From: Leifsonia sp. ZF2019
GTDB taxonomy: Bacteria > Actinomycetota > Actinomycetes > Actinomycetales > Microbacteriaceae
DNA length: 64,000 nucleotides
NCBI RefSeq assembly: GCF_019924635.1
Contig: NZ_CP065037.1
Coordinates: 682,001 to 746,000, forward strand
Direction of reading: 5' to 3'
The translations under genes and the position numbers were made by a program. The notes beneath the pieces were generated by a model. That model did no database searches and was not told the origin of the DNA. It saw only the letters and a program-made list of their open reading frames with translations. Shown piece by piece: positions 1 through 19,362 of this stretch. How positions within the stretch are numbered: the first letter of the stretch is position 1; each line of letters begins with the position of its first letter.

Positions 1-33
1 ACTCCCGACTAAGGGGCGGTGGGACGAACCCGA

Positions 34-1060: not shown

Positions 1061-1109
1061 GCGTGCCGCGTGCCGCGTGCCGCGTGCCGCGTGCCGCGTG
1101 CCGCGTTCC
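1061..1109. repeat. Heptanucleotide tandem repeat (GCGTGCC)n
   Basis: Six perfect copies of GCGTGCC followed by a seventh reading GCGTTCC, with no spacers. It lies in the 345-bp gap between the small membrane-protein ORF and the end of the LuxR-type gene at 1152. No convincing gene spans it. Reading frames on the minus strand contain repeated RGTRHAA because 7 is not divisible by 3, which marks them as repeat artefacts. Confidence 0.9.
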
Positions 1110-1151
1110 ACGCTCCGACGCTGCGGGCGAAGGACTGACCCGCAACTATCC

Positions 1152-3737: not shown

Positions 3738-3957
3738 CCACGTTCTCCTCGTCGCTCCCGAACAAGGGCTTCGGGCGTCCCTGGCTCGGCCTGCGAGGTG
3801 CAACGCCACTGCTTATATCAAACTGCATCTGAGATCCCCCTCAAAGAATGCTTTCGATTGCACTAGGTTCGCCCCGAATCACGACGGCCGTAGTACCTGG
3901 GACGGCGTGTCGAGGGAGGTTGGGTATGGCAGCCGTGTGCGCGATGCCTTGCCGCCG

Positions 3958-5106
3958 CTACGCCGCCGTCGCCCCGACGCTCATGATGGACGTTTCACGG
4001 CAGATCGATTCCACGTCATCGCCGATGGCCAGTCGCTGACAGATCGTCGCTATTCTCTCGCTCGCGTTACCATCGCCGTACGGCGATGGTGTCGTCAGCA
4101 GTCGGGAACGTAGTGCATGATCGTGCAGCATGGCGTTCGCCACCGAGGCGAGATCCGCTGTCGGCGGCGCGAGACGCGCGAAGCCGGCGTCCATCGATTC
4201 GGGGCGTTCAGTGGAGCGTCTGACAACGATCAGAGGCTTCCCGATGATCGTGCATTCCTCCTGAACCCCGCCCGAATCGGAGATGAGGAGATCTGCGCGC
4301 ATGGCCAAGGAGAGGAATTGCTCGTGAGAGACGGGCGGACCGACATGGACGAGTTCAAGAAGATGATCCAGGCCATAGGCAGACAATGCCGCACGCGTCC
4401 GAGGGTGAATGAGGAGGAGGACCGGTGCGTCGATTCCCGCGAGCCCGTGGAGGACGCGCGTGAGGGCGTCGCGCGTGTCGGTGTTTTCTGGTCGATGAAT
4501 GGTCGCCAGCACGAACCCGTCGCGGATTTCGGGGAGTGAAGTCGATGGGGCAGATTCCGCTCGCGCCACCGACTCCCGCGTAATCTCGACGATGGTATTT
4601 CCGGTGACAGATATACGCCCCGGATCGATTCCTTCCGACTGAAGGTTCCGGGCGTTCTGCATCGTTGCCGCGCAATGCACTGTGGCGAGCGCTCCGGCGA
4701 CCATGCGATTGATTTCCTCAGGCATTCCTCGGTCGTAGGAGCGCAGTCCTGCCTCGACGTGGACCACCGGGATACCTAGATAGTTCGCCGCCTGAGCTCC
4801 GGCGGACACCGCGTTGGTGTCGCCCTGCACGACAACGACGGACGGACGGTCCTCGAGGAAGGCGTCGGTGATGTCGCCGAGGGCGCTTGCGATCTGCGCG
4901 CCACGGAGTCGCCCTCCCACATCGCGGAGCAGGAGATGAGGCTCCGGCAAGCCCAGTTCTGGGAAAAACTGGCCAGACAACGCCGGGTCATAGTGCTGGC
5001 CCGTGTGTATGAGACGCGCTCGAGTGCCCAGCAGTCGAATGACGGGTGCCAGTTTGATGATCTCGGGTCGAGTGCCGAACACAAGTGCGATGTCGGCAGA
5101 TGGCAT
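3958..5106 (-). CDS. wecB: UDP-N-acetylglucosamine 2-epimerase (non-hydrolysing)
   Basis: A 382-aa cytosolic enzyme that interconverts UDP-GlcNAc and UDP-ManNAc for surface glycan synthesis. Family signatures are [14 protein letters not shown] at the N-terminus, [23 protein letters not shown] and, toward the C-terminus, SDSGGVQEE. The full family length is present. The ATG at 5106 has GGAG about 8 nt upstream. No other glycan genes surround it; it lies alone between two large LuxR-type regulators, which is unusual for a wecB gene. Confidence 0.92.
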
Positions 5107-5366
5107 TAGGAGTCTCCGTCCTCGGGTAACGCGGTGAGTAGTCGTCTGCCGTCGTCTGGACTGTGCGAGCGGTTCGACGCGGCAGCCGACTCTCATGATT
5201 CACGTGACTGAGAAGACGCACGGTTCTCGGCGCCGCGCGACGCAGGTCTCACCCTGGCTTTCACCCGGGGGAGCTATCTGTGAGGCGGGGTGAAGGGATG
5301 GGTGACCTCTGTCTCTTCTTCGATGGTGGTGTCCTCTGGGTGGAGGTGGCGCGACAGCATTCTTTA

Positions 5367-7982
5367 ATGGCCACGTCGCACGACCGCATTGTCAGCCCTC
5401 GCTCGGGCTCCCAACCGTCTCACCGGCATGTGAGTCGAACGATGCGTGAGCGCGCCGGCATTCTTCACGTACCTGGTATCGCGCCGCCTAGCCTTCCGTC
5501 GACCTTTCTGTCTCGGCCACGACTCGCCAGCGCGATTCATGGCGACTGGGACGTGATTGTGGTGATGGGTCCCATCGGGGCAGGAAAGACCTCCTTGTTG
5601 GCGGAATGGGCACACTCTCCCCGCGAAAACCCCACCGTCTGGCTTCCCTATGTCGAAAATCGTGAAGACTTCTGGCGATACCTCGGCGAGCTGCTCGGGG
5701 GATCTGCTCATTGTGTCGATGACGTGGTGGCGCTTGTACAGGCGTCGGATATCGCTGCAACCATCGTGGTCGACGACGTGCCTGGGGAGAGCGCGGATTT
5801 TTTCGATTCAATCCGCCGTCTCGCCACGTCTTGCCCGGGCATTCGGATGATCGTGGCGACGAGCGGCGCCTGCGCCCTCTCCGATCTTGCTGCCGTTGCC
5901 GATCTCGATATCAGGGTCATCGGGCCCACGGATCTCATGTTTACTCGGTCCGAAGCTCGAGAGGTCGTCACGTCCCTCGCTGGCCCGCACAGCGCCGACG
6001 ACGTCTATCTCGGGGACACGGTCCTACCATTGGGAGCGCGACTGATCGGCGTTGCCGTTGAGCGAGGAACCTACGGCAGCTTCGACTGGGAGGGCAGTGG
6101 CCGTTCTCAGGTGGCGGAGATACTTGTCCACAAGCTGATTCCGCAGATCCCGGACTCGAAGCTATTCACCGCAGTGATGCGTCTCTCAGTGGCGGAGTTC
6201 GTTGATGACGAACTCTGCCGCAGCCTCGTCGGTGAGTCGTCCGACGACCTCCTCGACGAACTCGAGCGGCTGGGGCTCGGCTACTTCACTCCCGCAGGCG
6301 CGGTGCGACGATTCACGATCGTGCCGCTCCTCCGTCAGGGGTATCTGAAAGAACTGCATCGACGATTGCCCGCTGAGGTTCAGAGTCTGCAGCGCGTCAC
6401 CGCACTCTGGTGTCTTGACAAGGGCCGTTTCGCCGAGGCGCTCCGCAACGCCGTTGACATCGAGGACTACTACTTGGCGTCCCGCATCGCGCGTGCAGGT
6501 TGGGCAGAACTCACGGGATCGTTCCTCTCCGAGGCCACGACGATCCTCGCAAGGCGGGACCGAACCAAGTACATGAAATTTCCTGTTCTCGCGACTCTTG
6601 CTGGATTGGGCGCGCTGCGACACTCACGTGACGGTGAGGCGTCGGTCCACTTCGAGGACGCTCTGAGCGCGCTCCGGCGGACCGGCGCACATGCGCAGGC
6701 CGATGTCATCTGGACCTCCACACTTCGCGCGGTGTGTCGTATGCACCTCGGGAGTTCTGCACTCGCGGCGCGGGCGGCGCAGCGCGCCGTGGCAGAGTTC
6801 GAGCAGCTAGCGCGTCGAACACGAGACGAGCTCGGCAACGCGGGCGGCCTTCTGATGAAGGAGTGCTCTATCGTCCTACTGTTCGCAGGGCTCACCACGG
6901 AGGCGGGCGCCGCGGCGCGACTCGGAATGAGATGGGCGGACGGGACAAGCATCACCGCGAACCAGCTGCGCCTCGTTGAAGCCGTCGCGTGGGCGCTCGA
7001 CGGACACATCGACGCATCGCTGATGCTGGTTGCTCAGCCGTTTCCGTCAGGACTGGGACTCGACCATCTCGAATCCGCACTGCGCGTCATCGTCGAGGCC
7101 GAGACGGGAGTTCTCGCGGCCCCGGAGGATCTGTCCCTGCTCCGCGGGCTCTGCCGTACGTCGGATTGGTGGACTGTGTCGTGGGCGCTCGCGCTGCACG
7201 CCATGGCTCAAGGGAGTTTTGACCAGGGGGCTGCGACAGTTGCGGCAGCGTTGCCCGCAATCGTTCCCGAGAGTATTGGCAAGCTCCGCACAGAGCGGAT
7301 GTACGGCTACCTCCTGATGGGTTCTCGCAGACCCGGTCGAGCGGACGAGCTCATTGCGCGGTTTGCTCGACGGGATGACGAAACCAGTCTCTTGCGAGCA
7401 GTCCGTTTCGCGCAGTCCGGCCGGTACTCGGAAGCACTCGAACAGACCGCCGTCGCTCTATCCGCCACGAATGAGTCCAATCCCCGCGTGGGTGCGACTG
7501 CGGCGATGTTGGCCGCCGTATGCGCATCCGAGCTACTCATGACCGACCTCAGCCATCAATTTGCTTCACGCGGCGTCGCATTGGCGAGCCAGCACCATCT
7601 CTTGTCGCCCCTCCTCGTGCTCTCAGCCGGCCATCGCGAGGAATTTCGCAGATTCCTCCAGTCGCTGCCCGGTGATCAGAGATCCTTCCCCGCTGGCTCG
7701 TGGCTGAGTGAACAGAGCACCAGCCATCCGTTAACCCGCCGTGAACGGGCGGTGCTCGCCGAGTTGCTGATCCACGAGACACGAGCCGACTTGGCTGAAT
7801 CGCTCGGAGTCTCCATCAACACCGTGAAGACGCAGTTGCGGAGCCTTTACAGAAAGCTCGGGGCGAGCGATCGCCGCACGGCGATCGTGAGAGCACTCGA
7901 GAGCGGGATCATCACCGCCAGTGAGAAGAGCCCAGCGCGGCCCATCGGCGATGTGAGCGGAGCAGCCGGCCTTCTCGACTGA
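5367..7982 (+). CDS. Large ATP-binding LuxR-family regulator (LAL/MalT-like), second copy
   Basis: About 871 aa, with the same architecture as the minus-strand regulator at 1152-3737: N-terminal Walker A GPIGAGKTS, long helical middle, and C-terminal LuxR HTH with LGVSINTVKTQLRSLYRKLG. Several starts are possible: GTG at 5280, ATG at 5298, 5367 or 5442. None has a strong ribosome-binding site; 5367 is a compromise, and 5442 would match the N-terminal length of the paralogue. Divergent from wecB. Sequence identity to the paralogue looks modest outside the NTPase and HTH ends, so the two probably sense different signals. Confidence 0.88.
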   Translation: MATSHDRIVSPRSGSQPSHRHVSRTMRERAGILHVPGIAPPSLPSTFLSRPRLASAIHGDWDVIVVMGPIGAGKTSLLAEWAHSPRENPTVWLPYVENREDFWRYLGELLGGSAHCVDDVVALVQASDIAATIVVDDVPGESADFFDSIRRLATSCPGIRMIVATSGACALSDLAAVADLDIRVIGPTDLMFTRSEAREVVTSLAGPHSADDVYLGDTVLPLGARLIGVAVERGTYGSFDWEGSGRSQVAEILVHKLIPQIPDSKLFTAVMRLSVAEFVDDELCRSLVGESSDDLLDELERLGLGYFTPAGAVRRFTIVPLLRQGYLKELHRRLPAEVQSLQRVTALWCLDKGRFAEALRNAVDIEDYYLASRIARAGWAELTGSFLSEATTILARRDRTKYMKFPVLATLAGLGALRHSRDGEASVHFEDALSALRRTGAHAQADVIWTSTLRAVCRMHLGSSALAARAAQRAVAEFEQLARRTRDELGNAGGLLMKECSIVLLFAGLTTEAGAAARLGMRWADGTSITANQLRLVEAVAWALDGHIDASLMLVAQPFPSGLGLDHLESALRVIVEAETGVLAAPEDLSLLRGLCRTSDWWTVSWALALHAMAQGSFDQGAATVAAALPAIVPESIGKLRTERMYGYLLMGSRRPGRADELIARFARRDDETSLLRAVRFAQSGRYSEALEQTAVALSATNESNPRVGATAAMLAAVCASELLMTDLSHQFASRGVALASQHHLLSPLLVLSAGHREEFRRFLQSLPGDQRSFPAGSWLSEQSTSHPLTRRERAVLAELLIHETRADLAESLGVSINTVKTQLRSLYRKLGASDRRTAIVRALESGIITASEKSPARPIGDVSGAAGLLD

Positions 7983-8037
7983 AGAGGCTACACAACCGTA
8001 AGCGTCAACCGCGCCAAGGAAGGGGCGACTCGGCAGG

Positions 8038-8268
8038 ATGCGATCGAATCATCGTGGGTCAGATGTACGCTGCGCAATCCGAAGTGCCCTCAGCTTAACG
8101 GGCATCATGACATCCGCCGCGTTAGTGGAAGCATGCCAGCCCTTTCCCGCAGAGCGGGTACTGAAGGAGCTTTCGGGTCTTGTCCAGAGGGGTGACCTCC
8201 GATGCGCCGAGCAATCGGGAACAGTCTTCTATAGCGAGCGCGCCAAGCGAACGGGTGCGACGTCGTGA
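8038..8268 (+). CDS. Small predicted winged-helix-like protein
   Basis: A 76-aa ORF. The segment ALVEACQPFPAERVLKEL followed by GLVQRGDLRCAEQ and a short beta-hairpin resembles a small winged-helix fold, but this is only a pattern impression. The stop overlaps the GTG of the next ORF (GTGA), which suggests a two-gene unit. AGG stands directly before the ATG; a later ATG at 8107 is also possible. Function unknown. Confidence 0.4.
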   Translation: MRSNHRGSDVRCAIRSALSLTGIMTSAALVEACQPFPAERVLKELSGLVQRGDLRCAEQSGTVFYSERAKRTGATS

Positions 8269-8714
8269 TACTCCCGATGCCGGCATCGACCCAGCGGGGA
8301 GACGCTGTCGACATGTTTCGTTGGCGCACCGTGGATGGGGATCGGCAGGCACTCGTGGTGCGGGGGATCCTTCTGTACGCGAAGCGGGACGTCTGGGTGC
8401 TCGACATCGAGGATTCGACTCGGCACTTCTCGATGGCCGAATGGCACCTCTGCGCCCGTGTGAGCCGCGATGTCGAAAGGGTGACGCTCACCACATCTAA
8501 GATCCCCCACGGCGAGAGTGCTACCCGGCGGCATCGGTTCACGACACGGGCATTGACGGTCGCTGCGATCATCGCTGCCGGCTTCGAAGTCATCGCCTCC
8601 GCAGTCGAAGAGGACGACCATCAGTACTTCACCATCTCCGATTTCCTTCGCGCCCGAGAACGGCCGCACGGGATCCATGCGGGGGACGCCGCGGCTGGGC
8701 AGGAAGTGAATTAG
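8265..8714 (+). CDS. Hypothetical protein coupled to the preceding small gene
   Basis: A 149-aa protein of unknown function. It starts at a GTG overlapping the previous stop by four bases; in-frame ATGs lie a few codons further in (8277, 8313). The first half looks like a beta-rich domain (VRGILLYAKRDVWVLDIEDS). A hydrophobic stretch ALTVAAIIAAGFEVIASAV follows, and the C-terminus is polar. It could be a single-pass membrane protein. No family recognised. Confidence 0.5.
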   Translation: MILPMPASTQRGDAVDMFRWRTVDGDRQALVVRGILLYAKRDVWVLDIEDSTRHFSMAEWHLCARVSRDVERVTLTTSKIPHGESATRRHRFTTRALTVAAIIAAGFEVIASAVEEDDHQYFTISDFLRARERPHGIHAGDAAAGQEVN

Positions 8715-8890
8715 CCATCTCTCCGGGCGAGCTCGGATCGGTGCGGGGTGAGTGGTGGGGTGATTTACCAAGCTGGAGGTTTCCGCATCTCTGTGCGGAG
8801 TATTCGCTCGAAGATCATCGAAACAGTACTAACGCGGCACGGCGCCGTGGTCGGCCGCCGTGGTCGGCGCACCACACATTAGGGAGACAC

Positions 8891-9811
8891 ATGCGTATTA
8901 TCAGAATCGCTGCCAGCGCGGGAGCGCTTGCCGCACTGGCAGCTGGCGGGCTCATCGCCGCAGCGCCAGCAAATGCCGCTACCGCTGGCACCAACGACCT
9001 TGGTGTTTCAAGTATCATGTGGGAAGCGGCCACCGACGCGCCGTACCTTGTGTGGCATCAGTCTGCGTCGGGCGGGACTGTCGCCGGGACGGGTACGCTT
9101 CAGGCTGGCGACGTGATGCGCCAGACGGTTGCGTTGTCAGCGGGGCAGATCGGAAGCACGAGCTTCCAGCTCGGCGGTCTGGGTAACCCGATCTGCGACA
9201 CTACCGGGCAGCCGGTCACTGTCGCCACGGGGACGGTGAGTTGCCGCCTCCTGCCCAGCCTGAAGGGGCTCCAGTGGACGTTCACGGCCACCCAGGACAC
9301 CTCGGTCGCCAACCTCGACAACGGACCGGTGGTGGTTCCGATTGACCCGTCCATTCGCGATGAAGCCAGCGCTGAGGCGACGATCGTGTCGACGTTCCCG
9401 AGCGCACAGACAAGCACCAAGCCCGAGTGGCAGGACGCGGCGGTGTATCTGAGTATTGCCGCTCCGACGGTCACGGGAGATGACGGCGGAAATCCGGCAA
9501 CCGTGACGGGCCAGGGAATCCCCAATGCGGACATTCAGGTCTACGACACGTCTGGATCTGGCACCGCGACGGACCCGGGCAACTTTCTGGGGGGAACCGC
9601 TGCCGATTCGCAGGGGAATTGGTCGGTCACTCTCAGCCACAACCCCGCTGACGGCAAGATTCGAGTGCTTCAGGACCCGGACACGAGTGGAGGCCAGTAC
9701 ATTGATGACTGGCAGTTTTCGCCGTATGTGGATTACGAGCTGACTCCGGCTGGGCCGGTGGTTGATCTGCCAGGCATCGCCCGCATGGTCTCGGGGTGGC
9801 TCGGCTTCTAG
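8891..9811 (+). CDS. Secreted protein with bacterial Ig-like domain
   Basis: A 306-aa exported protein. It begins MRIIRIAASAGALAALAAGG and ends its signal peptide around APANAATA, so signal peptidase I cleavage near residue 30 is expected. The mature part is rich in G, T, S, D and V. Its last third fits an Ig-like fold (APTVTGDDGG ... NPADGKIRVLQD). A clear GGGAGA ribosome-binding site precedes the ATG at 8891, so the longer upstream reading is rejected. No sortase signal is seen, so release or non-covalent surface attachment is likely. A strong hairpin follows at 9842-9880. Confidence 0.75.
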   Translation: MRIIRIAASAGALAALAAGGLIAAAPANAATAGTNDLGVSSIMWEAATDAPYLVWHQSASGGTVAGTGTLQAGDVMRQTVALSAGQIGSTSFQLGGLGNPICDTTGQPVTVATGTVSCRLLPSLKGLQWTFTATQDTSVANLDNGPVVVPIDPSIRDEASAEATIVSTFPSAQTSTKPEWQDAAVYLSIAAPTVTGDDGGNPATVTGQGIPNADIQVYDTSGSGTATDPGNFLGGTAADSQGNWSVTLSHNPADGKIRVLQDPDTSGGQYIDDWQFSPYVDYELTPAGPVVDLPGIARMVSGWLGF

Positions 9812-9841
9812 CGCACGCGCGCGAGGCTGAGCTGTGCCCGC

Positions 9842-9880
9842 CTGGCGGCCGGATGACAAGGGATGCCATCCGGCCGCCAG
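9842..9880 (+). terminator. Hairpin after the Ig-like protein gene
   Basis: A 14-bp perfect stem (CTGGCGGCCGGATG pairing with CATCCGGCCGCCAG) around an 11-nt loop, 30 bp after the stop codon. There is no T-run, as is usual for high-GC actinobacteria. It probably separates this gene from the cyclase operon. Confidence 0.75.
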
Positions 9881-9992
9881 CCGTACCCGGGACTCGTGCG
9901 AATACAGCGCGGAGAGCTGATTCCGTCAGCTCTCGTTTCGCATACTCAAGCGCGGGAGGGTCGGAGTGCGGGCAATCGGAGAGGTGAACACA

Positions 9993-12158
9993 ATGACGCC
10001 TAGGACGAATGCCGCCGCCTCGCCGTCACGTCGCTCCCCGGGAGGCGCGAGACGCTTCAGCATTCAGTCGAAACTCCTGGTAATGCTGCTGGGGGTCAGC
10101 ATGGTCTCCGTCATCACCGCGGGAACAGTTGGCTATTTCAGTGCGTCGGACTCGCTGAGAGCCAACGTCTTCGCCCAGCTCACAACCATACGTGAGACTC
10201 GCGCGGCCGAGATCACCCGCTTTCTCGAGAGTGTCCGGTCGGACGTCATGATCGGGTCGAGCAACGAGAGCGCTGTCGGGGCTTCGAACAGCTTCAACTC
10301 GGCATTCGATCGACTGGAAGCTCAGTCGTTGCCGCCGACACTCCAGCAGTCTGTTGATCAGTTCTACCGGGATGATTTCGTCCCGCAGCTGTCAAAACGC
10401 ACCGGACTGGATTACTCGACAGCAGCATTCACCCCGCGCAACAATGCTGCGACATACTTACAAGGCTTCTACACGGCTCCGCATCACCTTGACTACGACG
10501 AAGCGGCCAAGGTGGACGACGCTCAAGACGGAAGCTCGTGGTCGGAGGTGAACGCCCGGTACAACTCGTACTTCAGGACGTTCACCGCGCACCTGGGGTT
10601 CGACGACGCCCTGTTGCTGGACACGCACGGAAACGTCGTCTATTCCGTCTACAAAGGTGTCGATCTGGGGGCCAATCTGAAGACCGGCCCGTACCAGGAC
10701 TCTGCGCTCACGAGTGCCTACGAACAGATTCTGAGGTCGAACACTCTCGGTGACGCCACGCTGACTGACTTCGATCGGTATCTGCCCTCGCTGAACGCTC
10801 CCACGATGTGGGCGTTGTCGCCGGTAGGAGCTGACGGGCAGATCACGGGAGTTCTCGCATTTCAGATCAGCCTCGACTCCATCAACACGGTCATGACTGG
10901 CGGGCAAGCGTGGGAGAAGCAAGGGCTCGGCGCAACCGGCGAGGTGTATCTCGCCGGACCTGATCGCACGATGCGGTCAACGTCACGCGCGCTCCTCGAG
11001 CATCCTCGCGACTACGCACAACGGGCACTAGAAGCAGGCACCCCCCCCGATGTCGTAGCGAAGATGAGCAAATATGAGGGAACGATCCTCCTTCAGCCCG
11101 TCCGATCGGCCGCGGTCGCCAATGCGTTCGAGGGGAAGACGGGCACGATCGTCGCGCGAGACTATTTGGGAACTGAGAGTCTCTCGGCGTACGCCCCTGT
11201 GCATATTCCAGGCCTCAATTGGGTGATCGTCGCACATGAAGACATGAATGAGGCATTCGCCCCCGTCGTCACTCTCACGCGCGACCTTGCTCTCTCGATT
11301 GTCGGTCTAGTGCTGCTTGTGTGTCTGGCCTCCTTGCTTCTCGCCCAGCTTTTCCTGCGGCCACTGCGCCGACTCGTGCGGGCGGTGAAGCGTATCGCAG
11401 CCGGCGAGATCGGCGTGCAGGTCAACACGGGATCCCGCGACGAGATCGCCGACGTGGGGGAGTCGTTCAACGAGATGTCCCGGAGCCTGCAAGTGAAGGC
11501 CGATCTCCTCGACGCGGAGCAGAAGGAGCATGAGCGACTGTTGCTCACGCTGATGCCCGAAGGGCTGGCCAAGCGATACAGGCAGGGTGACGAAACGATT
11601 GCCGAGGATCACCACGATGTGACGGTGCTGTTCGCAGACATCCTCGGATTCGACGACTATGCGCGCGATAGGAGTTCCGCCGAAACGCTGGCGTCTCTGA
11701 ACGACATCGTCAAGGCGTTCGAGGAAGAAGCGGAACGGTGGGGGATCGAGCAGGTTCGAACCACGCGTCAAGATGGCTTTCTCGCCAGTTGCGGGCTCGT
11801 CGTGCCCCGGGTCGACAGTGCGCGCCGCACCGTCGAATTCGCAATGGAGATGACGAGGATTGTCGATCACTTCAACACTCAGCACCACACAGAGTTGGGC
11901 CTCCGCGCGGGGATCGATACGGGAACAGTGACGAGCGGTCTCGTCGGTCGCACGAGCGTGGTATATGACATGTGGGGTGACGCTGTCAACCTGGCCCATC
12001 GCGTTCAAGGTTCTGCTGACGCCCCCGGCATCTACGTCACCGAACGCGTGGTGGAGGCACTCCCCGCATACGTCAGCTTCACAGAGACAGCCGTAGTCGG
12101 GGGCGGTCCCGATGAGCAACGTGTGTGGTGCGTCGACATCGAGGCTCAGCATGCCTGA
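9993..12158 (+). CDS. Membrane sensor class III nucleotide cyclase (Cache-HAMP-cyclase)
   Basis: A 721-aa inner-membrane receptor. TM1 is at about residues 27-49, a large extracellular Cache-like sensor follows, TM2 (LALSIVGLVLLVCLASLLLA) is near residue 430, then comes a HAMP linker and a C-terminal class III cyclase domain. Metal-binding Asp is seen in VLFADILGF; the transition-state Asn and Arg are in MWGDAVNLAHRVQ. The usual KTxGD segment is changed to RTTRQDG: the purine-reading Lys is Arg and one residue appears inserted, so substrate choice (cAMP, cGMP or another cNMP) is uncertain. GGAGAGGTGA precedes the ATG at 9993. It overlaps the next gene, a cNMP-binding channel, by 8 nt. Confidence 0.88.
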   Translation: MTPRTNAAASPSRRSPGGARRFSIQSKLLVMLLGVSMVSVITAGTVGYFSASDSLRANVFAQLTTIRETRAAEITRFLESVRSDVMIGSSNESAVGASNSFNSAFDRLEAQSLPPTLQQSVDQFYRDDFVPQLSKRTGLDYSTAAFTPRNNAATYLQGFYTAPHHLDYDEAAKVDDAQDGSSWSEVNARYNSYFRTFTAHLGFDDALLLDTHGNVVYSVYKGVDLGANLKTGPYQDSALTSAYEQILRSNTLGDATLTDFDRYLPSLNAPTMWALSPVGADGQITGVLAFQISLDSINTVMTGGQAWEKQGLGATGEVYLAGPDRTMRSTSRALLEHPRDYAQRALEAGTPPDVVAKMSKYEGTILLQPVRSAAVANAFEGKTGTIVARDYLGTESLSAYAPVHIPGLNWVIVAHEDMNEAFAPVVTLTRDLALSIVGLVLLVCLASLLLAQLFLRPLRRLVRAVKRIAAGEIGVQVNTGSRDEIADVGESFNEMSRSLQVKADLLDAEQKEHERLLLTLMPEGLAKRYRQGDETIAEDHHDVTVLFADILGFDDYARDRSSAETLASLNDIVKAFEEEAERWGIEQVRTTRQDGFLASCGLVVPRVDSARRTVEFAMEMTRIVDHFNTQHHTELGLRAGIDTGTVTSGLVGRTSVVYDMWGDAVNLAHRVQGSADAPGIYVTERVVEALPAYVSFTETAVVGGGPDEQRVWCVDIEAQHA

Positions 12159-13545
12159 GGTGGCGTCGCAGCCGTGGTTTTGGCCGGCCCTGGCAATCGT
12201 TGTCGGCACGCCCCTGGCGCTCATAGTTCTCACCGAGTTCGCAGACGCTCTCGCCAGGCGCGAACGCCCGTCGGCTCGCCTGGTGAAGTTCATCCGCAAC
12301 TTCGTCGTGCCTACAGGAGCGCTTCTCGCTCTTCTGAGCCAACTGCGCCTCGACTCCGATGAAGTCAACTGGAGTAAGCTCGCTGCGACGCTTTTCGGCT
12401 TCGTTCTCATCGTCGGTCTTCTCAATGGACTGAATATCGCGTTGTTTGCGCGGGCCGCGCGCGATACGTGGCGCTCACGCGTGCCCTCCATCTTCGTCGA
12501 CATCGTGAGGCTTCTGCTGATCGTTGCATGCCTCGCCCTATTGTTCGCCTGGGTCTGGGGAGCTGACGTCGGGGGGCTCTTCACTGCGCTCGGCGTCAGC
12601 TCGATCGTGATCGGCTTAGCTCTCCAGAACGCGGTGGGACCGATCGTCTCCGGGCTGTTTCTGTTGTTCGAGCAGCCGTTTCGCCTCGGTGATTGGCTCG
12701 ACACGGGATCCGTTCGCGGCCGGGTCATCGAAGTGAACTGGCGTGCGGTGCACATCGACACGGGAAACGGGATACACATCGTTCCCAACGGTGCCCTCGC
12801 GGACGCATCCTTCGCCAATCTCTCCCGAGGAATGGGAGCCTTCAGCGTGATCACCACATGCGAGTTCGGCGCCAATGACGCGCCGCATGACGTGATTCGT
12901 GTGTTGCGCGAGGTGGCTGCCGATCTACCCATGCGTGAGCCGAACACGATGCCGACGGTGGCCCTCGTCGGGCCGAGCCTCTACTCCGTCGACATCCCGC
13001 TCGGGAGCCCGGCCGTGGGGCATCAGGCGACCTCCCTCTTCGGCGTGTGGCTGTGGTACGCGAGCCGGCGTGCTGGCCTCCACCTTGATGGGGCGGATTT
13101 CCCACCGGGTGATGACCTCGACCGGCGACGTAGCGCGATCCAGCGCGTAAGAGGGGCTTTGCACGCGAGCGACGACGAAATCGATGCGCTTGCTGATGAA
13201 TCTGCCGTGCGGGAGTTCGGGCCGGGCGAGACCGTTCAGCGGCAAGGCGTGGCACCGGAGCATGTCGGGCTCATGGTGAAGGGGAGAGCGCGACTTGTCG
13301 TAGGTGGGAACGCTCTTGAGGTCGCTGCGCTTGGTCCTAGCGACTTCGTCGGGGAGTCAGCGCTGACTGGGCAACCGTCTCGAGCCGCGATCATCGCGGA
13401 CAGCGACATCGTCATCGTGACATTCCCCCTTCCTTCATTGCACGGATGGGCTCGTTCGCACCCGGCATTCGCACGAGACGTCGGCCAGACGATCGACAAT
13501 CGGCGCGTGCTTGAGGACGCGGCGATCGCGAAGGCGGCCGAATGA
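12151..13545 (+). CDS. MscS-type mechanosensitive channel with C-terminal cyclic-nucleotide-binding domain
   Basis: A 464-aa channel of the bCNG branch of the MscS family. Four hydrophobic helices occupy about residues 8-30, 50-67, 75-97 and 112-135. The MscS pore helix and its beta region follow (LGVSSIVIGLALQNAVGP, FRLGDWLDTG). A CNBD at about 360-455 contains the phosphate-binding signature FVGESALTGQPSRAAI, with the conserved Glu and Arg that hold the cyclic nucleotide. The ATG at 12151 lies inside the end of the cyclase gene. Cyclase and channel almost certainly form one pathway in which the sensor's cNMP gates ion or solute efflux. Confidence 0.9.
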   Translation: MPEVASQPWFWPALAIVVGTPLALIVLTEFADALARRERPSARLVKFIRNFVVPTGALLALLSQLRLDSDEVNWSKLAATLFGFVLIVGLLNGLNIALFARAARDTWRSRVPSIFVDIVRLLLIVACLALLFAWVWGADVGGLFTALGVSSIVIGLALQNAVGPIVSGLFLLFEQPFRLGDWLDTGSVRGRVIEVNWRAVHIDTGNGIHIVPNGALADASFANLSRGMGAFSVITTCEFGANDAPHDVIRVLREVAADLPMREPNTMPTVALVGPSLYSVDIPLGSPAVGHQATSLFGVWLWYASRRAGLHLDGADFPPGDDLDRRRSAIQRVRGALHASDDEIDALADESAVREFGPGETVQRQGVAPEHVGLMVKGRARLVVGGNALEVAALGPSDFVGESALTGQPSRAAIIADSDIVIVTFPLPSLHGWARSHPAFARDVGQTIDNRRVLEDAAIAKAAE

Positions 13546-13899
13546 CAGCGGGCCTCTGTTCCTGAGCTGCCAGGTAAAGAAGGTGACGGTAAGCCCGACC
13601 CCGGACAGGGCAATCCCGCACGTCAGGCCGCCCCAGCTCCATGGAACCACCATGCTGATAGCGCCAGTGGCGTAAAAGAAGGACGCTAGTTCTGTCGGGA
13701 TGAACGCGGAGGCGCGATGTGCGTCGTGATAGCCGGCGCGGGACTTCGACGCCGCATGGGCCGCCTTGCTGGCTACCAGTTGGGTCACTTTCGCCTCCAA
13801 CCCCGTGTTCACTTTCGCGATGAGTTGATAGCTTCCCGCACCTGCGATGCAGGTGCTAGCCCCCGCCCCAGGGTGCCATTGGCCCTTTTCGGGTGACAT
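13435..13899 (-). CDS. Hypothetical membrane protein, convergent with the channel gene
   Basis: A 154-aa protein. A polar helical first half (VNTGLEAKVTQLVASKAAHA) precedes two hydrophobic segments (TELASFFYATGAISMVVPW and GLTCGIALSGVGLTVTFFTW) and a basic tail. GAGGTGGAG stands just before the ATG at 13899, which supports this start over an earlier in-frame one. Its last 111 bp overlap the end of the channel gene on the other strand, so transcription from either gene could affect the other. Family unknown. Confidence 0.5.
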   Translation of the reverse strand: MSPEKGQWHPGAGASTCIAGAGSYQLIAKVNTGLEAKVTQLVASKAAHAASKSRAGYHDAHRASAFIPTELASFFYATGAISMVVPWSWGGLTCGIALSGVGLTVTFFTWQLRNRGPLSFGRLRDRRVLKHAPIVDRLADVSCECRVRTSPSVQ

Positions 13900-14001
13900 G
13901 GCTCCACCTCGCAGCTCGTGAGTGACGGAGCTGAGGGCGAAAAGCGACGACAATCGCCTCCTCGAGTGGGTTATGTTCCGGATTCATGGTGATGGTGTTC
14001 T

Positions 14002-14466
14002 ATGGAAACGACATCATCGGCTTTGTCTCCGCAGGTTCATTTTCTCCGCATGCCGGCTCCCGCCGAGGTGGCATACGTATCGCTCACACGCTGGAACGAA
14101 ACGTCCTTGTTCGGTGCGGGGGCCACACTCGAGCTGTTGACAGGTCGGATCGTCTGTTGTGGGGACCGAACCTTGGTGGTCGAGGCCGGAGGCGCGATGG
14201 TCACTACGAGTATCGGCAAGTGGGAGCTTCGCCGCCGGGTGGAGGAGCTACCCTCACGATTCTTTCTGTTCACTTCACAGATTGCTCGCTCGGACGCCGT
14301 CGCGCAGACGCGCGCGCTACGCCTGCGTCAGCGACACCTCTGCCTATTCCGCCGCCTCGGATTTCGGGTCGGCCATGTCCGTCGCCGCGAAGATCCGAGC
14401 ACGGACTCGTACGGAATCTACGACAGAGTTGCGTTCGCCACCAGTTCGTCTCCGACGGTCGAGTGA
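14002..14466 (+). CDS. Doubtful hypothetical protein
   Basis: A 154-aa open frame. The part from about residue 17 (an internal ATG at 14050) to residue 90 looks protein-like (TLELLTGRIVCCGDRTLVVE, then VTTSIGKWELRRRVEEL), while the C-terminal part is Arg-rich and resembles a shadow reading. A competing frame from 13986 also starts plausibly but soon becomes low complexity. This may be a decayed gene with a frameshift. Confidence 0.3.
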   Translation: METTSSALSPQVHFLRMPAPAEVAYVSLTRWNETSLFGAGATLELLTGRIVCCGDRTLVVEAGGAMVTTSIGKWELRRRVEELPSRFFLFTSQIARSDAVAQTRALRLRQRHLCLFRRLGFRVGHVRRREDPSTDSYGIYDRVAFATSSSPTVE

Positions 14467-14768
14467 GCGTCACACCTCAGGCGGTCGCTCGACCGCGCAC
14501 TTCGACAACCATCAGACTTCTAGTCGGAGTGCCGCGGCTGCACTTTCGGGCGGTTGGCGATGCGGCGTGCGGCATCCGCTGATCGGTGGCCGTATTGACA
14601 CGGCGGCCGCCGGTAGCAGGTAGCCGGATCCGGTCCGGACCCCAGTGGCGATCGCTGATCCGCGGAAGTCTGCCACGATTCGGCTCGCACGTGCGCCAAA
14701 GCGCGACTTCCAAATCAGCCCTCGACGGGGATTTCACACGACGTTACCCAGCGCACTCCAGAATCACG
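14467..14768. other. Intergenic stretch, no supported gene
   Basis: About 300 bp between the doubtful ORF and the 3' end of the lysozyme-like gene. The open frames seen here are short or continue as antisense of the neighbour. No strong hairpin was seen. Confidence 0.6.
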
Positions 14769-15386
14769 TCAAAAGAGGTCATCAACGAGAGACGATGCGG
14801 GCGCGACCCAGTGTGTATAGAGGCTCGGGTAGGCGCTGACCTGCACCGTCTGGGCTGCGACCGGCACCGGAATACTCTCCCACTCCGGTACAGCCGCCAA
14901 TCGGTCAAGGAACGCCGACGAGGCGAACACGGGGTCTTCGATCTGCTGCGCCGTACCCCAACCCTCGGAAGGTCGCTGCTGGAAGAGTCCGAGAGAGTCC
15001 CTGTCGCCTGCTCTGAGGTTCCGCAGACTGGACTCCTGCCCCGCCGTGGCAACCGCAACGATCGCCGCCCGGCGCTGGGCGTCCGGGGTAGGGAATTTCA
15101 CCTTTGCGACTGCGATGATGGTCGCCGCATTCTGGATCTGCTCCGGGCTGAATCCTGCAATGGTGTCGAACCCCACAGTCGGTGTCTGGGGAAGGCTCAC
15201 AGGAGGCCTCGCGGTGACGAGATTTTCAAGTGCTTGGGCGCGCGGTTGTCCTGCAACGGGGCCAATCCGGCTCAGAATGCGTACTCCCATGAAAACGGCT
15301 ACACCCGCGAGAGTGAGCACGAGGACGGCGAGCGCAACGCTCACCCCTGTGCTGCGCCTCGCCCTCTTTGCGACATCGGGCTTCAA
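14769..15386 (-). CDS. Membrane-anchored lysozyme/transglycosylase-like protein
   Basis: About 205 aa. One N-terminal membrane anchor (STGVSVALAVLVLTLAGVAVF) leads into a linker and a lysozyme-like domain. The run AIVAVATAGQESSLRNL ... GDRDSLGLFQQRPSEGWGT is typical of actinobacterial phage- or ICE-type peptidoglycan hydrolases, with the catalytic Glu probably in GQESS. The C-terminal PSLYTHW completes the family pattern. Expected to act outside the membrane on peptidoglycan. The start is uncertain: TTG at 15386 gives a normal anchor; upstream GTG codons (to 15593) add an unlikely Arg-rich tail. Confidence 0.72.
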   Translation of the reverse strand: MKPDVAKRARRSTGVSVALAVLVLTLAGVAVFMGVRILSRIGPVAGQPRAQALENLVTARPPVSLPQTPTVGFDTIAGFSPEQIQNAATIIAVAKVKFPTPDAQRRAAIVAVATAGQESSLRNLRAGDRDSLGLFQQRPSEGWGTAQQIEDPVFASSAFLDRLAAVPEWESIPVPVAAQTVQVSAYPSLYTHWVAPASSLVDDLF

Positions 15387-16061
15387 TTGAGACGTCTGTA
15401 AAATGCTGCGTCGACTGACGAGCTTGCGGGGGCGCTGAAATTCGAACACGTGCTCTCGGCGTCGGCACCTGGTCAATTGCACACTGTGCAGCCTGCACGA
15501 TCGCGTGCGGGCAGTACCCCGCCGAGCAGCCCGAAACCAGATTTTCACCCACAGTCCGTGCCTGCTGCGAGTGATTAGGGGGCGTCTCGTCACGTGCGAG
15601 TTGCGGCGGCCTCAGCCGATTGCGATCTTCGAACCGCCATGGCCTGGGGTATCGCTCGCATGGATGGCGTCGCGCAGGGTAACCATCAGCGCTCCGCTGC
15701 CAGGCGTCGACTCTCTGGCCCTCGGTCAGCGATCGCGTTCGCCCAGCGGGAGAGCAGCGAGGCAGCGCATACCCTGCCCACAAGGGCTCCCCGCGGACGC
15801 ATCCCAGCACGCTGCTACTGTCGGGCCTACTATTCGGTCGAACGCTCGTGGGGACGTCGACACGTCCTACGAGCACGCGGCGATGCAGTCGGAACCGGCG
15901 TGCGGGTGTCGGTCAAGGCCGCGCCGTACGGCCTTCATGCTACCCGCCCGGTGTGCTGCTCCAGCCGCCCTAACCTGCAATGAAACAGATGGAAGTGACG
16001 GTCCTGTGCGGCGGGATCATTGACGAGATATGGCTCGCGAGGGTGCCAATATTCCTCGAGG

Positions 16062-16102
16062 CGGTGTGCTGCAATTCCACCCGACGGTATTGCAGCACAC
16101 CG
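16062..16102. repeat. Perfect 14-bp inverted repeat, hairpin 1
   Basis: CGGTGTGCTGCAAT pairs with ATTGCAGCACACCG around a 13-nt loop. The stem is perfect and moderately GC-rich. There is no T-run on either strand, so it is not a textbook terminator. Confidence 0.9.
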
Positions 16103-16119
16103 GGATTCCCTTGAGGAGA

Positions 16120-16163
16120 TCGTCCCGGGTGGCAGCGGATTGTGACAGCACCACCCGGGATGA
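16120..16163. repeat. Inverted repeat, hairpin 2
   Basis: The core TCCCGGGTGG pairs with CCACCCGGGA, extended by three more base pairs (one G-T) around an 18-nt loop. It lies only 17 bp after hairpin 1 and shares no sequence with it. Confidence 0.85.
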
Positions 16164-16336
16164 GGTCAAATTTATCGAGCCTCCGGGCGCAGTGAACGCT
16201 CCGGCTTGATGCGGACCCAAGTTCACCCCGTGGATCACCCGGCAGGCTTGTTTGCGACGGATGTCGTCCCGGAGCGGGAGCTGAGATCGTACCGTCGACC
16301 GATGGGCGGGTAGGGGATGGTGGGGATGCTGGGTCT

Positions 16337-16984
16337 ATGAAAACGGATTCGGGTTCCAGAGGCGCATTTGTGAACGGGTGGCTATCGCGGGCATGTCGTA
16401 GGCTGGTGGGGGATGACCAGTGGCGCACGGTGCCCAACTACATCAGCCTTGGTCGGTTGGCGTTGCTGCCGCTCTTGTTTGCGTTCTTGGCGACGGGGCT
16501 TTATTCCGTCGCGGTCGTTGTTGCAGTGGTCGTGTTTGTCTCGGATTTCGTTGATGGGTATGTTGCCCGGCGTACCGACACGGAGTCTCGGTTGGGTGCG
16601 TGGTTGGATCCGGTGGCGGACCGGTGTGCGGGTATGGCTGTGGCGGCAGGTTTGGCCGTCAGTCACGCAATTCCGTGGGGGTATCTGCTGTTGCTGGTGG
16701 TGCCGGATGTTGTGCTTCTCCTGGTTGCTGTGCTGAAGTTCTCAGGTTCGCCGGAGGTAGCGGTGACGAAAACGGGGAAGGCCCGCACCGCGCTGATCTT
16801 CCTCGGCCTTGCGACGGTGATGCTCGGGATGGCACTCAGTGAGCACAGTACCGACACCATGAATCTGGTCGGTTGGGGGTACCTGACTGCGATGATCGGC
16901 CTGGCTGTGCACTACATCGCCGGGGTTCAGTACCTCACCGCCATGTGCCACAAACCGCGGCATGTGTCGAACGTGACCGCATGA
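16337..16984 (+). CDS. CDP-alcohol phosphatidyltransferase family protein
   Basis: A 215-aa integral membrane enzyme with four or more helices. The full CDP-alcohol phosphatidyltransferase signature is present: Asp70, Asp73-Gly74, Ala77-Arg78, Gly87, Asp91 and Asp95. The family transfers a phosphatidyl or related group from a CDP-lipid to an alcohol such as glycerol-3-phosphate or inositol. It most resembles PgsA/cardiolipin-synthase-like members, but the acceptor cannot be named from sequence alone. It stands alone, so a specialised copy is more likely than the essential PgsA. Confidence 0.85.
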   Translation: MKTDSGSRGAFVNGWLSRACRRLVGDDQWRTVPNYISLGRLALLPLLFAFLATGLYSVAVVVAVVVFVSDFVDGYVARRTDTESRLGAWLDPVADRCAGMAVAAGLAVSHAIPWGYLLLLVVPDVVLLLVAVLKFSGSPEVAVTKTGKARTALIFLGLATVMLGMALSEHSTDTMNLVGWGYLTAMIGLAVHYIAGVQYLTAMCHKPRHVSNVTA

Positions 16985-17360
16985 GAACACGCAACCTCGC
17001 ATGGTTCCCGAACATCTCTCATCGAGCACGTGCACACATAAGCGAATCCCTCAATTGGAGTGCGCTGCAGGAGTCATTACCCCGCTCGGGCTGGGTGGGT
17101 GGCCCATAGATCGCGTTGGCCGCCGGATAGGACGAGACCCAGGACGGTCACGGAATTGATGCCGCACCGTGGAATTCGCGGGGGCGAATATTGCGTTCAA
17201 CGCTGGCGTTCAACCCTAGCTGTCATGTGATTCCCTTTGACTACGAGTGGGCCGACAACGGAGCAGGTCGCCAAGAGCTCACCCTTCACTCGATTGAGGC
17301 TTTGGCACCGGGCACGATCTTGTGGTCTACCGCGCGCTACGGCGAGAAGAGGGGAAAACT
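16985..17360. other. Intergenic stretch, no supported gene
   Basis: About 375 bp between the phosphatidyltransferase and the lipoprotein gene. A 74-codon open frame at 17191-17415 overlaps the lipoprotein start and has no ribosome-binding site or recognisable domain; I regard it as chance. Confidence 0.55.
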
Positions 17361-17870
17361 GTGGGAGTACGATCGCGAGTCATTAAGCAGCGCGTGCTGC
17401 TCGTGTCATCGCTGAGCCTGACGCTGCTGGGCGTGACGGGCTGTTCGAACCCTGCGACCGGGACTACGTGTACCGGATCGCCGAGCGTAGTGTTGCAACG
17501 CTTCACGGAATCGTTCAACCAGCATGACGCTCACGCAATTGCTGCACTGTTCTCGCCCGATGCCACCTTCATCAACATATTCGGCATGCGAATGGAAGGA
17601 CGTACGGGGATCGAAAGCGGCCACCGAAAAGCCTTCCGTAGCCGGCTTGTGACAGCGGTCTTGGTGATGAAGGGTGTCGAGAAGCAAGAACTCGCCCCTG
17701 ACAAGTACGTTCTATACGGCACGTGGAACCTCGCGCAGCCGAAGAGTGCTGACAGCGGGAGAAGCGTCCCGGCCGGCTCAGGAATCCTCACCGCGGTCGT
17801 GCAGTGCGCCTCAGGAGACTGGCAGCTGCGAGCGGCCGCAAACGTTCGCCAAGCAAGCCCGCCGAGCTGA
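17361..17870 (+). CDS. Lipoprotein with SnoaL/DUF4440-like fold
   Basis: A 169-aa predicted lipoprotein. A basic N-terminus and hydrophobic core end in the lipobox VTGC, so the mature protein should be lipid-anchored outside the membrane. The mature part (VLQRFTESFNQHDAHAIAAL ... LFSPDATFINIFG ... GRTGIESGHRKAF) fits the cone-shaped NTF2-like SnoaL/DUF4440 family, often annotated as SgcJ/EcaC. These bind small ligands or act as isomerases. The GTG at 17361 has AGAGGGG seven bases upstream and gives a normal signal peptide; the earlier GTG at 17322 is less likely. Confidence 0.78.
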   Translation: MGVRSRVIKQRVLLVSSLSLTLLGVTGCSNPATGTTCTGSPSVVLQRFTESFNQHDAHAIAALFSPDATFINIFGMRMEGRTGIESGHRKAFRSRLVTAVLVMKGVEKQELAPDKYVLYGTWNLAQPKSADSGRSVPAGSGILTAVVQCASGDWQLRAAANVRQASPPS

Positions 17871-18510
17871 AGACCCACCATCCTCCTCAGAATGTGCAAC
17901 CGCGACGACGGATGCCGTGCCGCCGTCAGCATGACATTGTTGCGGGGTTGGACTCGCGGCTGTGGTCAGAGAGTCTTCGGCGTTGCCCGTTTAGCTCTCA
18001 GTTTGGGAGTCCACTAACACCGGTGAACAGGGCCCACCTTTCCGACGAATCGAGCGGGCTACGGCGTGATTCCGTCCACGTGAGCACGCGTCGGGAAGGC
18101 CTCAATGGACCGAGGCGAATCCGAGAGGGCTACGTTCGGGGTGATGTTTCGCCGCGCAGGGTGTTGCGCGCAGCCGGGGGCGTTGGTCCCTGCGATACCA
18201 GTATCCATGCGCGTACAGAAGGACCTGAAGGGGAGCCCGGGGCCAAGCATGGAGTTCTCGTACCGGATCAATGCAGGACCCCGGGGCGGCCCTTGCCACG
18301 AGCCGAGCGACACTGTGGACGGCGACGATCGCGCAGACGATCCTCGGCGATCTCGGCTCACGTCGGTCTCTCGAGGGGTGCAGTCGCGGGCGACTGCACC
18401 CCTCATCACATCCACGTGGGTGCCCAGTCTCAGTGGCGAATGTCCACCGGGCGCCCTCGCACCGCGCGGCAACCGTAGACGGCATGTATTCAAGGGATGA
18501 AGGAGCATTG
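17871..18510. other. Intergenic region with a long palindrome
   Basis: About 640 bp with only shadow-type open frames. Its main feature is a nearly gapless palindrome at 18373-18404, about 107 bp before the next gene. Confidence 0.6.
18373..18404. promoter_or_regulatory. Near-perfect 32-bp palindrome upstream of a membrane-protein gene
   Basis: GAGGGGTGCAGTCGC and its exact reverse complement are separated by only two G bases. Two nucleotides are too few for a stable RNA loop without opening the stem, which favours a DNA site for a dimeric regulator or a cruciform, although a terminator cannot be excluded. Confidence 0.6.
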
Positions 18511-19362
18511 ATGTCTGAGCCTGAGAATGAACGGCCCGAGCGTGGCGGCAAGAAGATCGTGCGCAAGGTGTCGGCTTCCCCGAAGCATCCATCGAGCGCG
18601 CCAACCGCTGAAGCGGGTGCTCGTCCTGAATGGGCGCCCACGGCAGAGAGCAAGCGTCAAGCAACGCTCCTTCGACTGATTGCAATGGGGTCATGGGTGA
18701 TCGCGGTCGGAGGTGAGCTCTTCGCGGTGCTGTGGGTGCTTCGGCAGCAGCCGGTCAGTGTGGGATTGCTCGTCGCGGTGATCGTACTCATTGGCGCGTT
18801 TGCGGTCACTGGGTCGTTGTTATGGAAGCGAGCGAATCGGCTGAACCCCGCGGCGAAGGCCGATCGGGTTCGTTTCTTTGTTCAGAACCAGCTCGGGGCG
18901 ATCATCGCGGTGGTTGCTTTTCTTCCTCTGATCATCGTGGTTCTCTCAAGCAAGAACTTGGATCCGCGACAGAAGGCTGTGGCGGGCTCTGTTGGCATAC
19001 TTGCCGCCGCAATTGCTGTGTTCGCCGGTATCGACTTCAATCCACCTTCCGTGGAGGAGTACTCGCAGGAAACGAACATCGTGCAACAGCTGACGGGACA
19101 GGATGTTGTGTACTGGACAAAATCGGGCACGGTTTTTCATGTCTGCTCCGATGTACCGGACGTGAACAAGGAGTCCCGAGATCACACGATCTACGAAGGG
19201 ACCGTGGCTGACGCCCATGCTGCCGGCAAGCAGCGTCTGACTCAGAAGTGGAAGAGCGAGGCCGTCGCCTACTGTGGCTATACACAAGAGCAGGTGAGCG
19301 GGATATCGGGCGCGGTCGAAACCCAGACTCCCGAGCCGACCAGGGGATCAGGCGGTCAATAG
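18511..19362 (+). CDS. Hypothetical four-helix membrane protein with extracytoplasmic domain
   Basis: A 283-aa protein. A charged N-terminal segment of about 50 residues (SEPENERPERGGKKIVRKV) leads to two helix pairs: LIAMGSWVIAVGGELFAVLW with VGLLVAVIVLIGAFAVTGSL, then LGAIIAVVAFLPLIIVVLSS with VAGSVGILAAAIAVFAGIDF. A soluble C-terminal domain of about 110 residues with two Cys (FHVCSD and AYCGYT) follows and may form a disulfide outside. AAGGAGCATTG just before the ATG fixes the start. No family is recognised, though similar proteins of this layout are common in actinobacteria. Confidence 0.75.
   Translation: MSEPENERPERGGKKIVRKVSASPKHPSSAPTAEAGARPEWAPTAESKRQATLLRLIAMGSWVIAVGGELFAVLWVLRQQPVSVGLLVAVIVLIGAFAVTGSLLWKRANRLNPAAKADRVRFFVQNQLGAIIAVVAFLPLIIVVLSSKNLDPRQKAVAGSVGILAAAIAVFAGIDFNPPSVEEYSQETNIVQQLTGQDVVYWTKSGTVFHVCSDVPDVNKESRDHTIYEGTVADAHAAGKQRLTQKWKSEAVAYCGYTQEQVSGISGAVETQTPEPTRGSGGQ

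Follow-up and report, generated by a model that had tools for sequence, protein, structure and literature searches.

Two overlapping genes are found on the forward strand of the window, by which we mean the whole 64,000-nt stretch of the Leifsonia sp. ZF2019 genome that was analysed. The first gene (positions 9993–12158) encodes a 721-aa membrane receptor in which a transmembrane segment, a dCache-like sensor, a second transmembrane segment, a HAMP domain and a class III cyclase homology domain follow one another, and the second (12151–13545) encodes a 464-aa channel of the MscS superfamily with a C-terminal cNMP-binding-type domain (CNBD). Both assignments are based on the open reading frames, Pfam, AlphaFold models and fold matches. 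The receptor and channel reading frames share 8 nt (12151–12158, ATGCCTGA), and the sequence, the ORFs and Pfam thus confirm the preliminary description of this locus as a sensor cyclase overlapping an MscS-type channel.

In the receptor, residues 194–414 (10572–11234) form the extracytoplasmic dCache_1-like sensor, whose match to PF02743 (39.1 bits) lies below the 45-bit cut-off; the AlphaFold model (pLDDT 89.5) shows long helices followed by strand-rich stretches at 203–292 and 317–417. The HAMP domain comprises residues 449–500 (11337–11492; PF00672, 51.6 bits) and the cyclase homology domain residues 537–691 (11601–12065), for which PF00211 gives 109.7 bits, above the curated cut-off and in agreement with the fold matches. 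Alignment to AC9 and the family columns, read beside control cyclases, places D549, D594, D659, N666 and R670 in this domain, together with R589 where the substrate Lys is usual. D594 occupies the second metal position in these alignments, a placement that depends on the gap left by an adjacent one-residue insertion: HMMER sets the gap before D594, which puts it on the metal position, and the alternative gap placement puts Gln there.

The AlphaFold model of the channel (pLDDT 89.2) contains helices at residues 10–36, 41–64, 74–99 and 113–136 and a probable pore helix at 140–174, and Foldseek matches its fold to YnaI/MscS. The MscS beta domain (MS_channel_2nd) spans residues 163–226 (12637–12828; PF00924, 67.9 bits) and the CNBD residues 354–431 (13210–13443; PF00027, 42.4 bits); each of them was found in all 76 family members scanned, the window included. 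The family alignment locates the stretch of the phosphate-binding cassette, G401 E402 ... R411 A412, at 13351–13386. An MscS-type channel joined to a cNMP-binding-type domain is what defines the bCNG channels, a group of the MscS superfamily reportedly described by Caldwell et al. 2010 and Malcolm et al. 2012. Pfam, the model and the 76-member scan all show this layout, an MscS pore with a C-terminal cNMP-binding domain, in the window channel, and by layout the channels of the family would count as bCNG channels. Two things set them apart from the known ones: nearly all members have lost the Glu and Arg of the pocket, and there is a tie between the channel and a single receptor gene.

How strict is this tie? 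Counting duplicates, 154 of 155 sequences have the cyclase directly upstream of the channel, and the lone exception is a cut contig. The gene pair was found in 64 of 398 Microbacteriaceae genomes and also in mycobacteria. All 63 further Microbacteriaceae genomes that bear the channel carry the cyclase as well, adjoining by coordinates, so that the search for co-occurrence and synteny upheld the earlier proposal that the two genes are a unit, the homologues being adjacent and not separated. Within the genus, PF00211 matches occur in 4 of 28 genomes, the same four that hold the channel. A sample of 396 genomes of the phylum gave 14 strong channel matches in 13 genomes, each adjoining a strong cyclase match by coordinates, and no cyclase match with E ≤ 1e-150 away from a channel among the candidates scored, which were at most four and two per genome. 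The pairing is therefore near-obligate across the family, which spans at least two actinobacterial orders plus distant members of the phylum. A separate scan of 66 genomes returned matches in three, the third of which (G766) is partial. The family distribution is patchy, and the pair of the window sits in a low-GC region.

The two genes are also closely spaced. For 152 of 154 cyclase–channel pairs (duplicates included) the distance from stop to start lies between −8 and +34 nt, and among the 136 non-redundant pairs it is −8 in 25 and −4 in 37. The identity matrix of the cyclases correlates with that of the channels (r = 0.93 over 135 pairs, uncorrected for shared species history). Promoter and terminator scans gave nothing exceeding chance, and a crude gene call over 84 loci showed no further conserved gene next to the pair; the largest cluster of neighbouring genes, present at 14 of the 84 loci, resembles spurious antisense frames. 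In one pair (L018) a single open frame runs over both genes. We gave this apparent natural receptor–channel fusion no weight: it is known from a single assembly, and since the final 140 bases at the junction can be aligned with those of L019 without inner gap, a frame change further upstream in L018 can be inferred.

A cyclase followed by a membrane protein with a CNBD, distributed patchily and placed in a low-GC region, recalls Pycsar, and the preliminary description had raised the possibility of phage defence through an MscS-type membrane effector. According to the passages of PMC11224242 that bear on this point, Pycsar likewise joins a cyclase and a CNBD effector in one system, PycC plus PycTM or PycTIR, in which the pocket Gly, Glu and Arg are highly conserved, whereas in the family of the window they are mostly lost. 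In the present family, moreover, a large outside sensor belongs to the cyclase protein. The best PADLOC PycC match reaches only 28.2 bits, in a library that states no cut-off, as against 109.7 bits for PF00211. The channel had no match in 72,556 plasmid records (E ≤ 1e-30) or 50,697 phage records (E ≤ 1e-15), one scan of viral contigs yielded no confirmed relative, and the 84 loci showed no conservation of neighbouring genes. Phage defence by the pair is thus unlikely, and we regard a Pycsar-like system with an MscS-type effector as very improbable.

Does the pair then form a circuit in which an outside signal raises a cyclic nucleotide that opens the channel? To answer this, residues were counted in a non-redundant set of 136 pairs, obtained from the 155 by dropping four truncated or broken ones (L027, L040, L086 and L167) and copies at least 99% identical. 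The catalytic set D549/D594/N666/R670 is complete in two of the 136 cyclases, and D594 itself is present in four. In 16 members, the window included, a residue is inserted beside the second metal position, which makes this position ambiguous; nine of the 16 combine Asp at the inserted position with Gln at the first metal position. In fifteen cyclases both metal positions are acidic and the Asn and the Arg are present, so activity is possible for that minority. On the channel side, E402 is found in one and R411 in four of the 136. The degeneration extends to the distant operons, where catalytic and pocket residues are degenerate too: none of seven aligned cyclases from distant genomes keeps the first metal Asp, the Asn or the Arg (an eighth, L157, truncated at a contig end, was excluded). 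Some of these operons have three genes, and a split C1/C2 cyclase was considered for them and rejected, both cyclases having degenerate residues. Each of nine aligned cyclases from loci titled Mycobacterium, Mycolicibacterium or Mycobacteriaceae is without at least one metal Asp, with the second metal position ambiguous through an inserted residue in four of the nine. As a control, 12 loci that were the best cyclase matches outside the family were taken; L244 gave no match, and the 11 actinobacterial cyclases that aligned keep all four catalytic residues and the Lys. The family departs from class III cyclases such as Rv1625c (PDB 7yz9, 4p2f) and the mammalian adenylyl cyclases in that 135 of 136 members have Arg for the substrate Lys and most have degenerate metal, Asn and Arg positions. 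Loss of the pocket is not peculiar to this family, since degenerate pockets are common: 14 other CNBDs of the genus, read by coordinates, include none with the Arg.

Because nearly all relatives have degenerate catalytic and pocket residues, the canonical messenger route is not what conserves the pair, and the circuit first proposed is not supported as a family mechanism. In this genome, estimated to be 100% complete, it is possible, because the pair supplies the sole PF00211 match and the sole PF00027 match and could close the circuit by itself. The ligand-bound receptor would here make cAMP or cGMP, which the CNBD would bind so that the channel opens. The nucleotide-binding signature, earlier called intact, appears so in the window channel, which has E402 and R411; as judged from the alignment, this combination occurs in no other of the 136 members. 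The window cyclase has D549, D594, D659, N666 and R670, and since the pair had been chosen for its pocket, the chance of finding D594 as well was about 0.03. Against this stand R589 in place of the substrate Lys, the dependence of D594 on one of two gap placements, and the nearest relatives: the cyclase tree places the window beside three Leifsonia pairs that have Glu at 594 and Leu or Phe in the pocket. As these neighbours lack the canonical residues and the channel half evolves fast, the residues are more easily explained as gains than as an ancestral state. Taken together, a canonical circuit in this species seems possible but rather doubtful. For this species, rescue of a defective site by a heterodimer with another cyclase was discarded, there being no other PF00211 match in its genome.

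The unusual divergence of the window channel concerns its C-terminal half. Against L007, L018 and L019, the pore and beta regions are 93–96% identical, the C-domain 41–44% and the CNBD 37–39%. A tree with distant outgroups puts this half outside all others; without outgroups, the half taken entire clusters with L180 and L231 (support 0.78), whereas of its parts taken singly the CNBD joins the Leifsonia pairs (0.80) and the C-domain finds no supported place (0.08). We considered whether a domain swap had supplied the channel with an intact CNBD and set this aside; we treat the divergence as probable fast evolution, with a swap as a further possibility.

Why, then, are the degenerate domains retained? 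Both are under purifying selection and are not decaying. Over 27 close pairs, the window not among them, the cyclase domain has a median dN/dS of 0.050, the CNBD one of 0.083 and the sensor one of 0.127; for HAMP the median is 0.041 over 26 pairs of relatives. Mean identity is higher in the cyclase domain (56.5%) than in the sensor (46.3%), and the pore and beta region of the channel is the most conserved (75% mean pairwise identity). Several replacements are themselves kept and not drifting, namely R589 in 135, D659 in 127 and, within the conserved GxTALTR of the channel, R407 in 129 of 136 members. Such constancy would fit a pseudoenzyme that binds ATP, GTP or another ligand uncyclised, or a cyclase with an unusual product, recognised in either case by the altered pocket. 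However, the window channel itself has Gly at 407, we are aware of no earlier case of such a product or of such a pocket, and we consider this explanation unlikely.

Since most members are without the residues for making or canonically binding a cyclic nucleotide, we propose coupling by contact. The dCache-type domain would sense an extracytoplasmic ligand, and the signal would run through HAMP into the cyclase-fold domain, presumably a dimer, which would control the MscS-type channel, presumably a heptamer, via its CNBD, mainly by direct contact of the two cytoplasmic domains or through a tightly held ligand. In the species of the window, near-canonical residues at both ends, which count against a reading by contact, suggest that a real cyclic-nucleotide step may have been kept or regained. 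That the family is such a receptor–channel unit, with a possibly nucleotide-using member in the window, is a reading that may equally well prove right or wrong. The architecture, the joint inheritance, the degenerate residues, the purifying selection and the single PF00211 and PF00027 matches of the genome are observed; the physical coupling, gating direction, oligomeric states, solute and stimulus are all matters that we infer. More tentatively, the family may be a collapsed second-messenger circuit, with a class III cyclase fold turned into a non-catalytic transmission domain that acts directly on a former CNBD, and with the chemistry retained or regained in the species of the window.

The KCNH channels (hERG, EAG, ELK) offer an analogy of working, not of membership: as summarised in part of PMC7515569, they keep the CNBD fold as an interaction module, are not directly cyclic-nucleotide-gated and act via domain contact. 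They differ in belonging to another pore family and in having as partner a PAS domain and an intrinsic ligand in the same protein. Judged by published descriptions, M. tuberculosis Rv2435c and Rv2434c, which have neighbouring locus numbers, are probable mycobacterial members. Passages of PMC4822843 and PMC3961136 report a double Cache domain in Rv2435c and call it an adenylate cyclase, and passages of PMC11205783 call Rv2434c a membrane protein possibly involved in cAMP signalling; these passages do not treat the two as a single receptor–channel unit.

The literature searched contained no description of a receptor–channel unit of this kind, nor of an MscS channel in bacteria that has a dedicated outside receptor to open it, and we know of no such channel. 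Because most of the relatives examined are without residues normally required for making or binding the messenger, the receptor may act on the channel by another route. Direct coupling would mean that, in this family, a second-messenger pathway has been converted into a receptor–channel complex. An active pair in the window would amount to a minimal sensor–messenger–channel circuit, the genome having no other PF00211 or PF00027 match. Should the family be a collapsed circuit of which the species of the window has retained or regained the chemistry, both modes of coupling could be compared among close relatives. Either way, the annotation of such receptors as adenylate cyclases, probably of the mycobacterial ones too, is worth testing.

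The membrane receptor gene with a class III cyclase domain (9993–12158, plus strand) and the MscS-type channel gene that it overlaps by 8 nt (12151–13545, plus strand) were paired correctly in the preliminary description, and the pairing is much better conserved than could have been known from one sequence. A scan of genome contigs, covering the best 80 of 136 loci encoding relatives, placed the cyclase directly upstream of the channel in 79, and in the single remaining locus the contig starts about 27 bases before the channel. With later-fetched loci added, the cyclase was present in 154 of 155 sequences (window included, some duplicates). Cyclase stop and channel start, with start codons chosen by script, lie −8 to +34 bases apart in 152 of the 154 pairs; the other two are a pair that reads as a fusion and a pair whose cyclase frame is broken. 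In one Leifsonia aquatica assembly (L018, about 5940–6080) the two genes can be read through as a single open frame, which seems to result from a frameshift in the cyclase gene, either real or a sequencing error. The cyclase matches of four genomes (G139, G390, G436, G333) each have one internal stop codon reported, and another genome (G815) carries two copies of the pair, on contigs C133 and C150 (L166, L167).

Within Microbacteriaceae, the channel was found in 64 of 398 genomes and 25 of 85 genera (limit 1e-20, up to 4 candidates scored per genome); among the matches listed, no E value fell between 1.9e-96 and the limit. A cyclase search of all 63 further channel genomes located a cyclase adjoining the channel by coordinates in every one, so that the synteny which the preliminary description proposed to check holds, rather than the genes being separated in most genomes. 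In the genus, the channel occurs in 4 of 28 genomes and any match to the cyclase family PF00211 is confined to the same four. Among the matches listed for a phylum sample of 396 genomes, strong channel matches occurred in 13 (14 matches in total), and the same 13 had strong cyclase matches beside the channel. Over 135 pairs, the identity matrices of cyclase and channel show a correlation of r = 0.93, a value uncorrected for shared species history. No conserved neighbour gene was seen, the largest cluster (14 of 84 loci) looking spurious, and the unit apparently comprises this pair alone.

What the family conserves does not include the usual chemistry. Positions were mapped by alignment to human AC9 and control cyclases, and we take the metal, Asn, Arg and Lys positions to have the roles generally known for class III cyclases. 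Across 136 non-redundant pairs, Asp stands at the first metal position in 78, Glu in 49 and Gln in 9; the second is Gly in 39, Asn in 29, Glu in 26, Ser in 12, Gln in 11 and Asp in only 4; the Asn and Arg positions are kept in 66 and 109, and the substrate Lys is replaced by Arg (R589) in 135. The complete set of two Asp, Asn and Arg is found in two cyclases, those of the window and of locus L224, and in 15 if Glu is allowed at the metal positions. Sixteen cyclases, the window's included, carry an extra residue next to the second metal position, so that the assignment there hangs on gap placement; the extra residue is Asp in nine, and since the first metal position is Gln in every one of these, the complete-set count is unchanged. 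Eleven of 11 actinobacterial cyclases outside the family (best such matches) kept the four residues and the Lys.

Residue loss extends to the channel's C-terminal cyclic-nucleotide-binding-type domain (CNBD), for whose fold PMC11224242 names pocket Gly, Glu and Arg residues. Only one of the 136 channels has the pocket Glu and four have the Arg, with both together in the window's alone; R407 is kept in 129. The proposed route from external signal through cyclic nucleotide to channel opening may operate in the window species, yet the family as a whole does not conserve it (complete residues in 2/136 cyclases and 1/136 pockets).

Some distant relatives carry a second cyclase gene. G468, G521 and G740, three genomes from other families, have the order cyclase–channel–cyclase with tight spacing, and such operons lie in genomes outside the window's class at L153 8193–14004, L154 7953–13833 and L155 6327–12246 (minus strand). 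The cyclase domains of both flanking receptors are degenerate in all three, in different ways. Genome G591 holds two of these cyclases, each on its own contig and one running off a contig end, and no channel match, so that it could fit either a paired or an unpaired state. In an alignment of seven distant cyclases, of which G591 supplied one and the three complete operons the other six, none retained the Asp of the first metal position, the Asn or the Arg; the near-misses were one Asp two positions on and one Asn one position on. The Gly-Glu...Arg pattern was found in 0 of 3 distant channels.

Could these folds simply be decaying? In 27 independent close pairs of relatives, which the window, having no close enough relative, did not join, median dN/dS rose from 0.021 in the pore and beta region through 0.041 in HAMP (26 pairs), 0.050 in the cyclase domain and 0.083 in the CNBD to 0.127 in the sensor. 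The replacement residues R589 and R407 are themselves conserved, and with the low dN/dS the pattern is not one of decay. Averaged over pairs, sequence identity reaches 56.5% in the cyclase domain, against 46.3% in the sensor and 39.4% in the CNBD. In most members at least, selection maintains the folds for a purpose that is not the usual chemistry.

The window is the sole pair with complete residues at both ends. Chance coincidence with a second metal Asp is about 0.03 (4/136), a figure that counts this Asp alone because the pair had been chosen for its pocket. The cyclase tree places the window beside three Leifsonia pairs (support 0.98), which have Glu at 594 and Leu and Phe in their pockets. 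The C-terminal half of its channel is fast evolving and its tree position varies with part and outgroup: the whole half groups with L180 and L231 (0.78), the CNBD alone with the Leifsonia pairs (0.80), and with distant outgroups included the half falls outside all others. Given this unstable placement and the relatives' residues, the chemistry may have been regained or kept, or else the resemblance may be partly chance. Counting against the window's specialness, 14 other CNBDs of the genus (L245–L258) all lack the pocket Arg, and the Glu position is always acidic, with Glu in 7 and Asp in 7. Of four inspected by eye, three resemble fusions with a thioredoxin-reductase-type enzyme; PF00211 matches are absent from 24 of the 28 genomes of this genus. 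The window genome has no further PF00211 or PF00027 (CNBD) match, and for an active cyclase this channel would thus be the one CNBD target detected.

Positions 1–20000 of the window have 61–64% GC versus 65–74% in the remainder, consistent with an accessory region. On the cyclase's strand, 181 bases upstream of it, 8741–9811 encodes a possibly secreted protein that weakly matches a bacterial Ig domain (20.1 bits, below cut-off). Two large frames also lie close by: the one at 5280–7982 matches GerE (LuxR-type) and, weakly, AAA, and the one at 1152–3809 matches PADLOC CARF3 models in a short C-terminal stretch only, perhaps a helix-turn-helix.

A literature search of titles and abstract openings found no description of a cyclase–MscS unit among the papers listed, most subscription papers, probably including those on bCNG channels, being beyond reach. 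From locus numbers and published descriptions, M. tuberculosis Rv2435c–Rv2434c is probably a family member: Rv2435c is called a double-Cache adenylate cyclase (PMC4822843), and Rv2434c is described as a membrane protein with a possible part in cAMP signalling (PMC11205783). In all nine mycobacterial-titled loci with an aligned cyclase, one or both metal Asp residues are missing; the second position is ambiguous in four.

Two PF00924 (MscS) matches besides the pair's channel occur in the window genome, so general osmotic safety need not rest on this channel. We propose a receptor–channel unit in which an outside ligand would act through HAMP on the cyclase-fold domain, then on the CNBD-type domain and the MscS pore. 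These parts and this order are shown. As KCNH channels illustrate (PMC7515569), a CNBD fold can escape cyclic-nucleotide control and serve domain contacts. Co-inheritance suggests that the receptor gates the channel, and the residues suggest that it would do so mostly without a canonical cyclic nucleotide.
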